From: Candidatus Aminicenantes bacterium RBG_19FT_COMBO_65_30 | GTDB lineage: Bacteria > Acidobacteriota > Aminicenantia > Aminicenantales > Saccharicenantaceae | Length of the DNA: 37,022 nt | Direction of reading: 5' to 3' | Assembly: GCA_001775755.1 (NCBI GenBank) | Contig: MEYF01000071.1 | Span: 22,571-59,592, forward strand | Shown: in pieces, positions 32,182 through 35,929 of the stretch | How positions within the stretch are numbered: the stretch's first letter is position 1 | How the letters are laid out: the number at the start of each line of letters is the position of its first letter | Translations under genes and position numbers: made by a program | The notes under the pieces: generated by a model | Told to the model about the DNA's origin: nothing | What the model saw: the letters and a program-made list of their open reading frames with translations, nothing else | The model's database searches: none

Positions 32182-34062
32182 ATGATCGTCGTCGACAATC
32201 TCTCGAAGAGCTACGGCAAGCAGGGGCTCTTCGATTCGATCAGCTTCAAGGTCAACCGTCGCGAGCGCGTCGGCGTCGTCGGCCGCAACGGCCACGGCAA
32301 GACGACCCTGTTCCGGATGATCACCGGCGAAGATGAGCCCGACGCGGGGACGATCACGAAGCCGAGGAAATACCGCATAGGCTACCTCGAGCAACGGCTG
32401 ATGTTCACGGAGCCCACCGTCCTGGCCGAAGGGGCCAAGGCCCTGCCCCATGACGCCCATAACGAGATCTGGCGGGTCGAAAAGGTCCTGTCCGGCCTGG
32501 GCTTCGAGGCGGCCGACCTGGAGAAGCGCCCGTCCGAGCTCTCGGGCGGCTACCAGGTCCGGCTAAATATGGCCAAGGTCCTCGTCGGCGATTATCAGAT
32601 GCTCCTCCTCGACGAGCCGAGCAACTACCTCGACATCACCTCCATCCGCTGGCTGGAGCGCTTCCTCGCGGCCTGGCCCGGCGAGCTCCTGCTCATCACC
32701 CACGACCGCAGCTTCATGGATAACGTCGTCACTCATGTCCTGGGCATCCACCGGCGGAAGGTCCGGAAGATCGAGGGGAACACGGGCAAGTATTATGAGC
32801 AGATCGCGGCCGAAGAGGAGATCTACGAGAAGACGCGCGTCAATGACGAACGGAAAATGAAGGAGATGGACCTGTTCATCACCCGCTTCCGGGCCAAGGC
32901 CCGGCTGGGCGGCCTCGTCCAGTCCCGCGTCAAGTCCCTGGAGAAGATGGAGAAGCGGGAGAAGCTCGAGGCCATCAAGACGCTCGAGTTCGTCTTCGCC
33001 GAGAAGCCGGGCTTCCACAAGTACGCCCTGGACGTCCGCGACGTCTCCTTCGCCTACGCGTCCGACCGGCCCCTCATCCGGAGGTTTTCGATCAGCGTCG
33101 GGGCCAAGGACCGGGTTTTCGTCATCGGCCGGAACGGCCGGGGCAAGACGACCCTGCTCCGGCTCCTCGCTGGGGACCTGGCGCCGCAGTCCGGGGAGAT
33201 CGACTCGCCCCAGTCGGTCGCCCCCGGGTACTTCGAGCAGACCCACGTCTCGACGCTGGCGGAATCGAACACGGTTCTCGAGGAGATCGGCTCGGCCGAT
33301 CCCGATGGCGATCCCAAGCGGGTCCGTTTCATCGCCGGCGGCATGATGTTCGAGGGCGACGACGCCCTGAAGAAGATCCGCATCCTGTCGGGCGGGGAGA
33401 AGAGCCGCGTCCTCCTGGGCCGGCTCATCGCGACGCCCCTCAACCTCCTTCTCCTCGACGAGCCCACCAACCACCTCGACATCGAGTCGAACGACGCCCT
33501 GCTCGAGGCCATCGACGCCTTCGACGGCGCTGTGGTCATGGTCACGCACAACGAGATGTTCCTCCACGCCCTGGCCGACCGCTTGGTCGTCTTCGACAAC
33601 GACGACATCGTCGTCTACGAGGGCGGCTACCAAAGATTCTTGGACAAGGTCGGCTGGCGGGACGAGGTCATGCAGGGATCGATCGCCGCGGTGCCGCAGC
33701 CCGCGACGGGAGGGGAGGAGCGTCCGAAGTGGACGCCCAAGGAACTCCGGCGCCTGCGCTCGGAGGTCATCGCCGAGCGCTCCCGGGCGCTGCGCCCGCT
33801 CGAAGCGCGGATCGCGGCCCTCGAAAAGAGCGTGGAAAGCCACGACGCGTCCCTCCGCGAGCTCAACGGCGAGCTGGTCAAGGCCTCCCAGGGCCGTCAC
33901 GGGAGCAAGGTCGTCGAGATATCGAAGTCCATGCACGAGGCGAAGAAGACGATCGACGGCCTGCTCGAGGAGCTCGAAAAGGTCACCGTGGATTACGAGG
34001 CGAAACGGGCCGGATTCGACGCGAAGATGAGAGACCTCGACGATACCGGTAACGCCAGCTAA
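32182..34062 (+). CDS. ABC-F family ATPase (Uup/YheS-like ribosome-associated)
   Basis: A 626-residue protein with two complete ATPase cassettes and no membrane segments. Cassette 1: Walker A GRNGHGKTT (34-42), signature LSGGYQVRL (120-128), Walker B LLLDEPSNYLD (141-151). Cassette 2: Walker A GRNGRGKTT (316-324), signature LSGGEKSRV (402-410), Walker B LLLDEPTNHLD (423-433). The linker between them (about 215-270) is the charged P-site tRNA interaction region of ABC-F proteins, and the C-terminal 100 residues are a coiled coil as in Uup. These proteins act on stalled or empty ribosomes; some give antibiotic resistance. AGGGA before ATG 32182 is the ribosome binding site. A large hairpin follows the stop. 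Confidence 0.92.
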   Translation: MIVVDNLSKSYGKQGLFDSISFKVNRRERVGVVGRNGHGKTTLFRMITGEDEPDAGTITKPRKYRIGYLEQRLMFTEPTVLAEGAKALPHDAHNEIWRVEKVLSGLGFEAADLEKRPSELSGGYQVRLNMAKVLVGDYQMLLLDEPSNYLDITSIRWLERFLAAWPGELLLITHDRSFMDNVVTHVLGIHRRKVRKIEGNTGKYYEQIAAEEEIYEKTRVNDERKMKEMDLFITRFRAKARLGGLVQSRVKSLEKMEKREKLEAIKTLEFVFAEKPGFHKYALDVRDVSFAYASDRPLIRRFSISVGAKDRVFVIGRNGRGKTTLLRLLAGDLAPQSGEIDSPQSVAPGYFEQTHVSTLAESNTVLEEIGSADPDGDPKRVRFIAGGMMFEGDDALKKIRILSGGEKSRVLLGRLIATPLNLLLLDEPTNHLDIESNDALLEAIDAFDGAVVMVTHNEMFLHALADRLVVFDNDDIVVYEGGYQRFLDKVGWRDEVMQGSIAAVPQPATGGEERPKWTPKELRRLRSEVIAERSRALRPLEARIAALEKSVESHDASLRELNGELVKASQGRHGSKVVEISKSMHEAKKTIDGLLEELEKVTVDYEAKRAGFDAKMRDLDDTGNAS

Positions 34063-34076
34063 GAAAAGAAGCCCCA

Positions 34077-34175
34077 GAGGGGGTCAAACCTTAATTCTTA
34101 TACTTTTTTTGCCTTGGTTTGCGTTTCACGGGTCCGAGGGCCGGAAAAGTATAAGAATTAAGGTTTGACCCCTTC
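34077..34175. repeat. Large inverted repeat with 28-bp perfect arms
   Basis: The left arm (34080-34107) begins GGGGTCAAACC and is the exact reverse complement of the right arm (34145-34172), which ends GGTTTGACCCC. Three flanking pairs with one G-T wobble extend the stem to 34077 and 34175. The loop is 37 bases and GC-rich. The arms are AT-rich, unlike the surrounding genome. It fills the gap between the ABC-F and pstS genes. A T-rich run (TTCTTTCTTT) follows the right arm, so it may end ABC-F transcription. It looks like a small non-autonomous mobile or REP-type element. Confidence 0.8.
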
Positions 34176-34192
34176 TTTCTTTGCTATATAAT
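34165..34192 (+). promoter_or_regulatory. Promoter of the pst operon, overlapping the inverted repeat
   Basis: TTGACC (34165-34170) lies in the right arm of the inverted repeat; a 16-base spacer and a perfect TATAAT (34187-34192) follow. The predicted leader to pstS (34222) is about 23 bases. No PhoB-type box (CTGTCAT repeats) is visible upstream. Confidence 0.7.
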
Positions 34193-34221
34193 TTGCCCCT
34201 AATGCCTCATTCCGAAATGAC

Positions 34222-35022
34222 ATGATGCGCCATCGGTTAGCCCTTGTCCTCCTGGCCCTCAGCGTCGCCTTTTCCCCCTCTTGCCGCGGCGGCCGGTCGC
34301 AGACCGATATGACCCTGGCCGGCTCGACGAGCATCCAGCCCTTCGCCGACAAGTGGGCCGAGGTCTTCATGGAGAAACGCCCCGGGCTGGGCGTCAACGT
34401 CCAAGGTGGCGGGTCGAGCGCAGGCATCCAGGCCTGCAAGAGCGGCGTCTGCCAGATCGGCATGTCCTCGCGGGAGCTCAAGGGCGACGAAAAAGACCTC
34501 ACCGAGATCGTCGTCGCCCGGGACGGCCTGGCCGTCATCGTCCATCCCTCGAACCCCGTCCGGGGAGTGAAGCTGGCCGAGGTCAAGCAGATCTTCTCGG
34601 GCGATCTGACGAACTGGAAGCCCCTCGGCGGGGCTGACCGGCAGATCACCGTGGTCACCCGGGAGGAAGGCTCCGGGACGCGGGGCGCCTTCCAAGAGCT
34701 GGTCATGGGCAAAACCCGCATCTTCCGTGGCGCCATCACCGAGGATTCCAACGGGACGGTCCGGGAGATCATCGCCCACGACCCTCACGCGATCGGCTTC
34801 ATCTCCCTTGGCCTGGTCAACGAGCAGGTCCGGGCTCTCGAGCTCGACGGGGCCGGGGCCAACGAGGCCAACATCAGGAACGGGCGCTACAAGCTCGTCC
34901 GGCCTTTCCTGTTCGTCAGCCGGGGGGAGCCGACGGGCCTGGCGAAGGAGTTCGTGGATTTCGTCCTTTCGGAGGAAGGCCAGACATTGATCAAGAAGGA
35001 GGGGCTCCTCCCGGTCAAGTGA
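34222..35022 (+). CDS. pstS: Phosphate ABC transporter substrate-binding lipoprotein PstS
   Basis: A 266-residue periplasmic binding protein. The signal sequence ends at about residue 20 (AFSPSC21), a likely lipidation site. Phosphate-binding loops are visible: AGSTSIQPF (33-41), GGGSSAGIQA, and TREEGSGTRGAF, which hold the Ser/Thr, Arg and Gly contacts of PstS. It captures phosphate and delivers it to PstC-PstA. Two ATG codons (34222, 34225) are adjacent, and no Shine-Dalgarno is clear. The gene starts the pst operon directly after the inverted-repeat element; pstC begins 16 bases after its stop. Confidence 0.92.
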   Translation: MMRHRLALVLLALSVAFSPSCRGGRSQTDMTLAGSTSIQPFADKWAEVFMEKRPGLGVNVQGGGSSAGIQACKSGVCQIGMSSRELKGDEKDLTEIVVARDGLAVIVHPSNPVRGVKLAEVKQIFSGDLTNWKPLGGADRQITVVTREEGSGTRGAFQELVMGKTRIFRGAITEDSNGTVREIIAHDPHAIGFISLGLVNEQVRALELDGAGANEANIRNGRYKLVRPFLFVSRGEPTGLAKEFVDFVLSEEGQTLIKKEGLLPVK

Positions 35023-35038: not shown

Positions 35039-35929
35039 ATGGACACGACGTCGAAAGGGCGCGGTAAGAACAAGCTGGAGAGGAACGACCGCCTCGTCCG
35101 TTTGGCGCTCCTCGTCGTCGCCTTCTCGGCGGTCTCCATCCTCCTCGTCATCACCGTCTTCATCGTCGGACAGGGGACGCCGATCATGTTCAAGTACGGG
35201 TTGAAGAGTTTCCTGGCCGGGGCCAACTGGTACCCCTCGGAGCAGCTCTTCGGCCTGTGGCCGATGATCGTCGGCTCCCTGTTCGTCACCGCTGGCGCTC
35301 TGGTCATCGGCATCCCCTTCGGCCTGGCCTGCGCCATCGTTCTGACGGAGTTCTCATCGAAAAGGGTCCGGCGTTTCATCAAGCCGGTCATCGAGCTCCT
35401 GGCGGGCATCCCGTCGGTCGTCTACGGCTTCATGGGTGTCATCATCCTCGTCCCGTTCATCCGGGAGACCTTCGGCGGGCCGGGCCTGTCGGTCCTGGCC
35501 GTCTCGATCATCCTGGGCGTCATGATCCTGCCGACCATCATCTCCATCTCCGTCGATTCGCTCCAGGCCGTGCCCCCGTCCTACCGGGAAGGCTCGATCG
35601 CCCTGGGCGCGACGCGTTGGCAGACGGTCAAGATGGTCCTATTCCCGGCGGCCCGCTCCGGCATCATCGCCAGCATCATCCTGGGCATGGGCCGGGCCAT
35701 CGGCGAGACCATGGCCACCATCATGGTCGCCGGCAACGCCGCCGAGATCCCCCGCTCGCTCCTCGCGCCGGTCCGGACCCTGACCTCGAACATCGCCCTG
35801 GAGATGAGCTACGCGACGGGCGAGCACCGGGAGGCGCTCTTCGCGACGGGCGTCGTCCTTTTCGTCATCATCATGGTCCTCAACACGATCGCCAACGCCA
35901 CATCGGCCAAGCGGAGGAAGCAGCCGTGA
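35039..35929 (+). CDS. pstC: Phosphate ABC transporter permease PstC
   Basis: A 296-residue membrane protein with about six hydrophobic segments. GIPSVVYGFMG and the permease-ATPase contact loop (VPPSYREGSIALGATRWQTV, residues about 180-199) are characteristic of PstC. It forms the inner-membrane channel with PstA. The start ATG 35039 has GGAAGAGG upstream. The stop overlaps the pstA GTG as GTGA, which fixes the two proteins in translational coupling. Confidence 0.92.
   Translation: MDTTSKGRGKNKLERNDRLVRLALLVVAFSAVSILLVITVFIVGQGTPIMFKYGLKSFLAGANWYPSEQLFGLWPMIVGSLFVTAGALVIGIPFGLACAIVLTEFSSKRVRRFIKPVIELLAGIPSVVYGFMGVIILVPFIRETFGGPGLSVLAVSIILGVMILPTIISISVDSLQAVPPSYREGSIALGATRWQTVKMVLFPAARSGIIASIILGMGRAIGETMATIMVAGNAAEIPRSLLAPVRTLTSNIALEMSYATGEHREALFATGVVLFVIIMVLNTIANATSAKRRKQP

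Follow-up and report, generated by a model that had tools for sequence, protein, structure and literature searches.

Bacterial REPINs, which are linked to RAYT genes, consist of two inverted repeat copies with a less conserved spacer between them, form hairpins, and are extragenic and species-specific (PMC3116915, 2011). TIR repeats and TIRtrons, with their TIRYT transposases, have been described, among others in Acidobacteria such as Koribacter versatilis (PMC3733652, 2013). In a TIRtron, a RAYT-like Y1 gene sits between long inverted repeats, which in some cases are self-complementary; some TIRs start with a GGGG motif, and GGGGWSAS is found in part of the published TIRs (PMC3733652). Dispersed families of TIR repeats, frequently in dimeric form, occur as well (PMC3733652), in an organization like that of REPINs (PMC3116915). 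How a host would benefit from REPIN-like palindromes is still debated; their use as promoters has been speculated upon but not shown (PMC8049555, PMC3733652). Insertion sequences that carry an outward-facing −35 sequence in the terminal inverted repeat are known to generate fusion or hybrid promoters (PMC9330008).

The 37,022-nucleotide stretch of DNA analyzed here (the window) belongs to an uncultivated Candidatus Aminicenantes bacterium (Acidobacteriota; genome G000), represented by a 2.45-Mb assembly of 136 contigs with 85.7% completeness; the nearest named relatives of its PstS come from metagenome-assembled Candidatus Aminicenantes or Acidobacteria genomes. Upstream of pstS it contains a palindrome that is best filed as a REPIN-like doublet akin to the TIR repeats and TIRtrons (PMC3733652, 2013). 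At this locus and two others, one end of such an element coincides with a predicted −35 box, and relatives in which the element is absent still have the box. The three loci provide a specific example, open to testing, of how a mobile palindrome may become regulatory DNA, and the occurrence of palindromes at shared positions with changing arm sequences bears on the turnover of such repeat families.

A dispersed palindrome family and RAYT-type genes

The original prediction described an inverted repeat with exact 28-bp arms and a 37-base loop, and both its sequence and its coordinates were confirmed (Table 1). With one mismatch allowed, the arms reach 34076–34107 and 34145–34176 (32 nt, 97%). 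The arm was absent from all shuffled windows, even with up to 3 mismatches, which excludes chance, and the single-strand fold of the palindrome was calculated at −65 kcal/mol, compared with −30.7 ± 3.5 for shuffles (z = −9.9).

Table 1. Features of the region between the ABC-F ATPase gene and pstC (window coordinates)
Feature	Position	Strand	Basis
ABC-F ATPase gene, upstream of the element	32182–34062	+	ORF; NCBIfam ABC-F models
Whole palindrome, putatively mobile, including outer AGAG / TTCTT ends	34076–34177	.	Comparison of 26 copies; inverted repeat
Left arm, GGGGTCAAACCTTAATTCTTATACTTTT	34080–34107	+	Inverted repeat, shuffles; recurs genome-wide
Loop, 37 nt, with no relation to other copies' loops	34108–34144	.	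Loop comparison
Right arm, exact inverse repeat of the left one	34145–34172	-	Inverted repeat, shuffles
TTGACC, predicted −35 hexamer within the right arm	34165–34170	+	Promoter scan; same spacing in five palindrome-free congeners
TATAAT, predicted −10 hexamer outside the element	34187–34192	+	Promoter scan; conserved in all 11 congeneric sequences
pstS, phosphate-binding protein	34222–35022	+	NCBIfam TIGR02136 above cut-off
pstC, phosphate permease	35039–35929	+	NCBIfam TIGR02138 above cut-off

A search of the genome and its relatives for the arm sequence found 52 arms in G000, every one in an inward-facing pair, giving 26 elements of 82–114 bp, and revealed related families in congeners. The 28-bp arms are near-identical among the 26 copies and have a G+C content of 31%. 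In contrast, the loops (26–58 nt, 58% G+C) are unrelated to one another except in L061, L062 and L066, the second of which lies in the opposite orientation; because these three alone share loop sequence, they represent the visible recent copies. Comparison of the family ends extends the arm to AAGAN-GGGGTCAAACCTTAA...TTAAGGTTTGACCCC-NTCTT, and the outer TTCTT, or a close variant of it, is a conserved element end in nearly all 26 copies. The two arms of an element agree at arm position 16 in 25 of 26 cases (13.5 expected) and at position 24 in 20 of 26 (11.9 expected), both being positions at which the family varies; a few elements are mixed. According to the crude calls of a simple codon-based gene caller, 25 copies are intergenic and the remaining one is intragenic. 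The exact arm was not found in viral contigs, and nothing relevant was found in the literature on Aminicenantes repeats.

Related elements occur in most congeners, each host having its own arm sequence; G005 contains dozens of related copies, most of them just 43 bp long. Y1/RAYT-like genes were detected in 9 of 12 congeners. In G007 and G012, an intact IS200-like, RAYT-type transposase gene is located between two arms of the host's own type, while in G009 one such gene lies between host-type arms and another between two complete palindromes. The linked enzymes match Pfam Y1_Tnp over its cut-off, and three of them score 65.9, 66.4 and 76.6 bits against NCBIfam REP_Tyr_transpos (NF047646), below its curated cut-off of 80 bits. 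The sequence NHYH, a candidate HUH motif, is visible in translations of RAYT-like genes; a search by sequence found no solved structural relative of the enzyme. G000 has three RAYT-like genes, all of other types and two of them with other flanking repeats. No RAYT gene flanked by the window's repeat was found in this incomplete (86%) assembly, the missing part of which may hold the matching gene. The copy number and structure of the element, together with the RAYT-type genes located between arms of the same kind in congeners, agree with the original proposal of a mobile or REP-type repeat, and suggest a non-autonomous REPIN-like palindrome of the TIR-repeat/TIRtron kind that would be spread by a RAYT-type Y1 (HUH) transposase.

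The likeness to TIRtrons consists in the Y1 gene between long inverted repeats in G007, G012 and G009, and is judged against the published description. The motif found here, GGGGTCAA, differs in that it fits 7 of the 8 positions of GGGGWSAS and misses the last one, and the present elements are doublets with unrelated loops, the ends of which coincide with −35 boxes. With REPINs, the family shares two inverted units with a spacer and a predicted hairpin (26 of 26 copies), a multi-copy (26) and mainly extragenic distribution (25 between genes), and arm sequences specific to the species. A RAYT-type gene between arms of the host's own type was found in G007, G009 and G012 but not in the 86%-complete G000. 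Unlike a REP sequence, one arm by itself gains no folding stability over shuffled controls (z = −0.08 and +1.54); unlike GTAG-tagged REPs, the arms of the 26 elements contain no GTAG; and the linked enzyme falls below the NCBIfam RAYT cut-off, a difference from REPIN/RAYT systems. As in the hybrid promoters of insertion sequences, the element end supplies a predicted −35 sequence to a −10 sequence in flanking DNA. The present element differs in being tiny, non-autonomous and palindromic, and its arrangement, which several species share, gives the impression of age and not of a recent activation.

The predicted pstS promoter and two further loci

The TTGACC and TATAAT hexamers, 16 bp apart and with 11 of 12 matches, constitute the only promoter-like site between 33900 and 34400. 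All 11 sequences compared within the genus, that of G000 among them, conserve TATAAT upstream of pstS, and TTTGACCC is found exactly 16 bp from it in G000 and in five congeners (G001, G002, G004, G006 and G009) that have neither the left arm nor any palindrome at this site. Because these five palindrome-free congeners keep the box at the same distance, it is older than the palindrome now present at the window's pstS. It had been proposed that a repeat landed here and donated a promoter to phosphate uptake, perhaps in place of PhoB control; the coincidence of the element end with the predicted −35 hexamer bears out part of this idea, but the comparison with sister genomes does not support a recent landing in this genome alone. 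Placed as they are, the element end and TATAAT would be expected to function together as a promoter.

The box is not universal in the genus. It is missing upstream of pstS in G003, G005, G010 and G011, and in G012 there is a full palindrome with different arms, but its distance from the −10 sequence is too great by about 21 bp. In the pstS tree, G004 pairs with G005 and G002 with G003, and as the state of the box differs within both pairs, it has been lost or gained within the genus. The outgroup G014 has TTTGACT-17-TATAAG at the same promoter, without repeat-like flanks. The 16-bp spacing is itself unusual, most TTGAC promoters found in the genus having 17 or 18 bp. In G005 and G011 (L186 and L211), the ABC-F reading frame apparently ends at a TAA inside the pstS TATAAT, which indicates a deletion and an overlap of gene end and promoter.

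A −10-like hexamer is located at 15–19 bp from 4 of the 52 element ends in G000, compared with about 0.6% of flanking positions, an enrichment to be read as indicative because the control positions include coding DNA. The four ends lie upstream of pstS, of hutH (L054) and of a gene for the guaA C-terminal domain (L066), and at L057, where the hexamer overlaps the start of the next gene and is unlikely to be a real promoter. For hutH and guaA, several congeners keep TTTGACC 17–18 bp from a conserved −10 sequence without a palindrome, while in others the box coincides with one end of a palindrome whose arms are of another type; at guaA, the palindromes of G000, G005 and G009 are of different arm types, each with one end on the box. 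In G001 (hutH) and G008 (guaA), a palindrome of another type is found just upstream of a separate TTGACC box.

Repeat end or native −35 box

Half-sites were scored at six positions that are dispensable for a promoter (GG before the box and TCTT after it) for their matches to the repeat end. The 13 palindrome-free half-sites, which were picked by eye and are related by descent, average 4.6 of 6 matches, and 7 of them score 5 or 6; the mean for 55 other TTGAC promoters, taken from G000 and G010, is 1.4 of 6, with none reaching 5. In G010, which lacks this repeat family, boxes are present at 2 of 3 promoter loci versus 0 of 11 others (p = 0.033), and the empty sites of non-promoter copies contain no TTTGACCCC. 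A role of TTTGACCCC as a required target site was accordingly rejected for the non-promoter copies. The half-site scores, the empty sites and the G010 counts together favor repeat ends that became −35 boxes. The outermost bases of the element, read outward, are GGTTTGACCCCNTCTT, which includes a −35 hexamer. Such an end would have come to lie 16 bp before a pre-existing TATAAT upstream of pstS and would have acted as its −35 sequence. Comparison of the congeners suggests that selection may have retained this end in much of the genus while the remaining palindrome was lost, and that the window's species may have kept, or renewed, a full palindrome with its own arm sequence. The pstS box is probably an old repeat end that was recruited as a −35 sequence and kept, in an order of events reconstructed from few genomes, the genomes used being mostly draft assemblies. 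We go no further than "probably" because G014 provides a counter-case and because the half-sites are kin-related and chosen by eye.

These same considerations leave some room for the opposite order, in which TTTGAC(C) was the ancestral −35 sequence of pstS and palindromes were later inserted beside it or exactly onto it, where the resemblance of the element end to the box would favor insertion and the promoter would still work afterwards. The outgroup promoter, in which TTTGACT stands at 17 bp and the flanks do not resemble the repeat, means that a native TTGAC box may have existed; native TTTGACCC promoters occur elsewhere in G000 and G010, and the guaA palindromes of different arm types, as well as the separate TTGACC boxes just downstream of other-type palindromes in G001 and G008, are likewise consistent with boxes that preceded the elements. 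Nevertheless, the palindrome-free half-sites resemble the repeat end beyond the needs of a promoter, and the TTTGACCCC-free empty sites of non-promoter copies argue against a required target, so that we consider a native origin somewhat unlikely.

It is improbable that the −35 match is accidental and unused, with pstS being read from another start or by readthrough from the ABC-F gene. A −10-like hexamer is within reach of no more than 4 of the 52 ends, and some congeners lack the box, as an accident would predict, but the exact spacing is kept in six species, the −10 sequence is conserved in all, and the same pattern recurs at two further genes. The suggestion that the ABC-F transcript ends at this hairpin by intrinsic termination fared poorly. 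A very stable fold 17 nt past the ABC-F stop codon, followed by T-rich bases, would suit this function, but a scan of 33900–34400 found no terminator-like site; the stem is mostly A-T, the loop long and the tail interrupted, in place of a compact G+C-rich stem with an immediate T run; and palindrome-free congeners have no hairpin. The T-rich run, which had been read as a terminator tail, is the element's own conserved outer end (TTCTT) and belongs to every copy of the element. Termination here is very unlikely. A conserved riboregulator in the pst leader, which the strong fold and the in-step variation of the arms within elements (25 of 26 agreeing at position 16, 13.5 expected) might have suggested and which the original prediction had raised in the form of a single-copy conserved element, was rejected as next to impossible because 26 copies lie beside unrelated genes and no Rfam family comes near its gathering score, and because the element precedes the predicted start and would not be part of the pstS transcript. 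As first observed, a search allowing up to 3 mismatches found no Pho-box-like site near pstS, and inspection by eye of the pstS upstream regions of congeners, both those that have the box and those that lack it, showed none either.

Shared positions with changing arms

Many of the 26 loci are also occupied in congeners by a palindrome that has the arm sequence of its own host, including G007 at seven loci (both flanks aligned), G012 at L068 and G002 at L070, and the arm types at shared orthologous positions can even be of unrelated families. Because the G007 loci were fetched as palindrome-bearing, the G010 count alone is less biased: this genome has its own, different family, with 19 doublets in 1.19 Mb by motif scan, the palindromes of which are imperfect, and this family occupies 5 of 13 aligned loci versus 0.5–0.8 expected (P = 1e-4 to 8e-4). 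The shared positions could reflect hot spots, tolerated sites or overwriting in place. We tentatively propose, as an account that may be correct in full but somewhat more probably is not, a RAYT-linked palindrome with an outward −35 sequence at both ends, whose ends would have been domesticated as promoter halves of the housekeeping genes pstS, hutH and guaA and kept after decay of the rest, and whose positions would be re-occupied or overwritten in each species with its own arms.

Another family of palindromes, whose arms read GGGGACA...TACC, is abundant in G010 and lies near RAYT-like genes in both G000 and G010; its sites include L078:2814–3425, the flanks of L057 to L078, and the G010 stretches L308, L314 and L324.

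Some copies of the window's family touch coding sequence. At L060:2987–3072 (G000:C46), a copy lies in frame within an HrpA-like helicase gene (DEAD, OB_NTP_bind, DUF3418) and contributes about 29 residues to the protein (GQTLNHILSGSRSDRESQKKVYDLRFDP); the arm variant of this copy, TATATGATTTAAGG, avoids the TAA stop of the common arm. At the same site of the helicase gene (sisters L279, L284 and L286), other in-frame palindromes are seemingly present in G003, G005 and G008. On the minus strand of the window (34158–34175), the element end provides a stop, GAA GGG GTC AAA CCT TAA (EGVKP-stop), which ends an antisense ORF, and the same codons from an element end form the C-terminus of an MFS transporter at L058:2117–2201.
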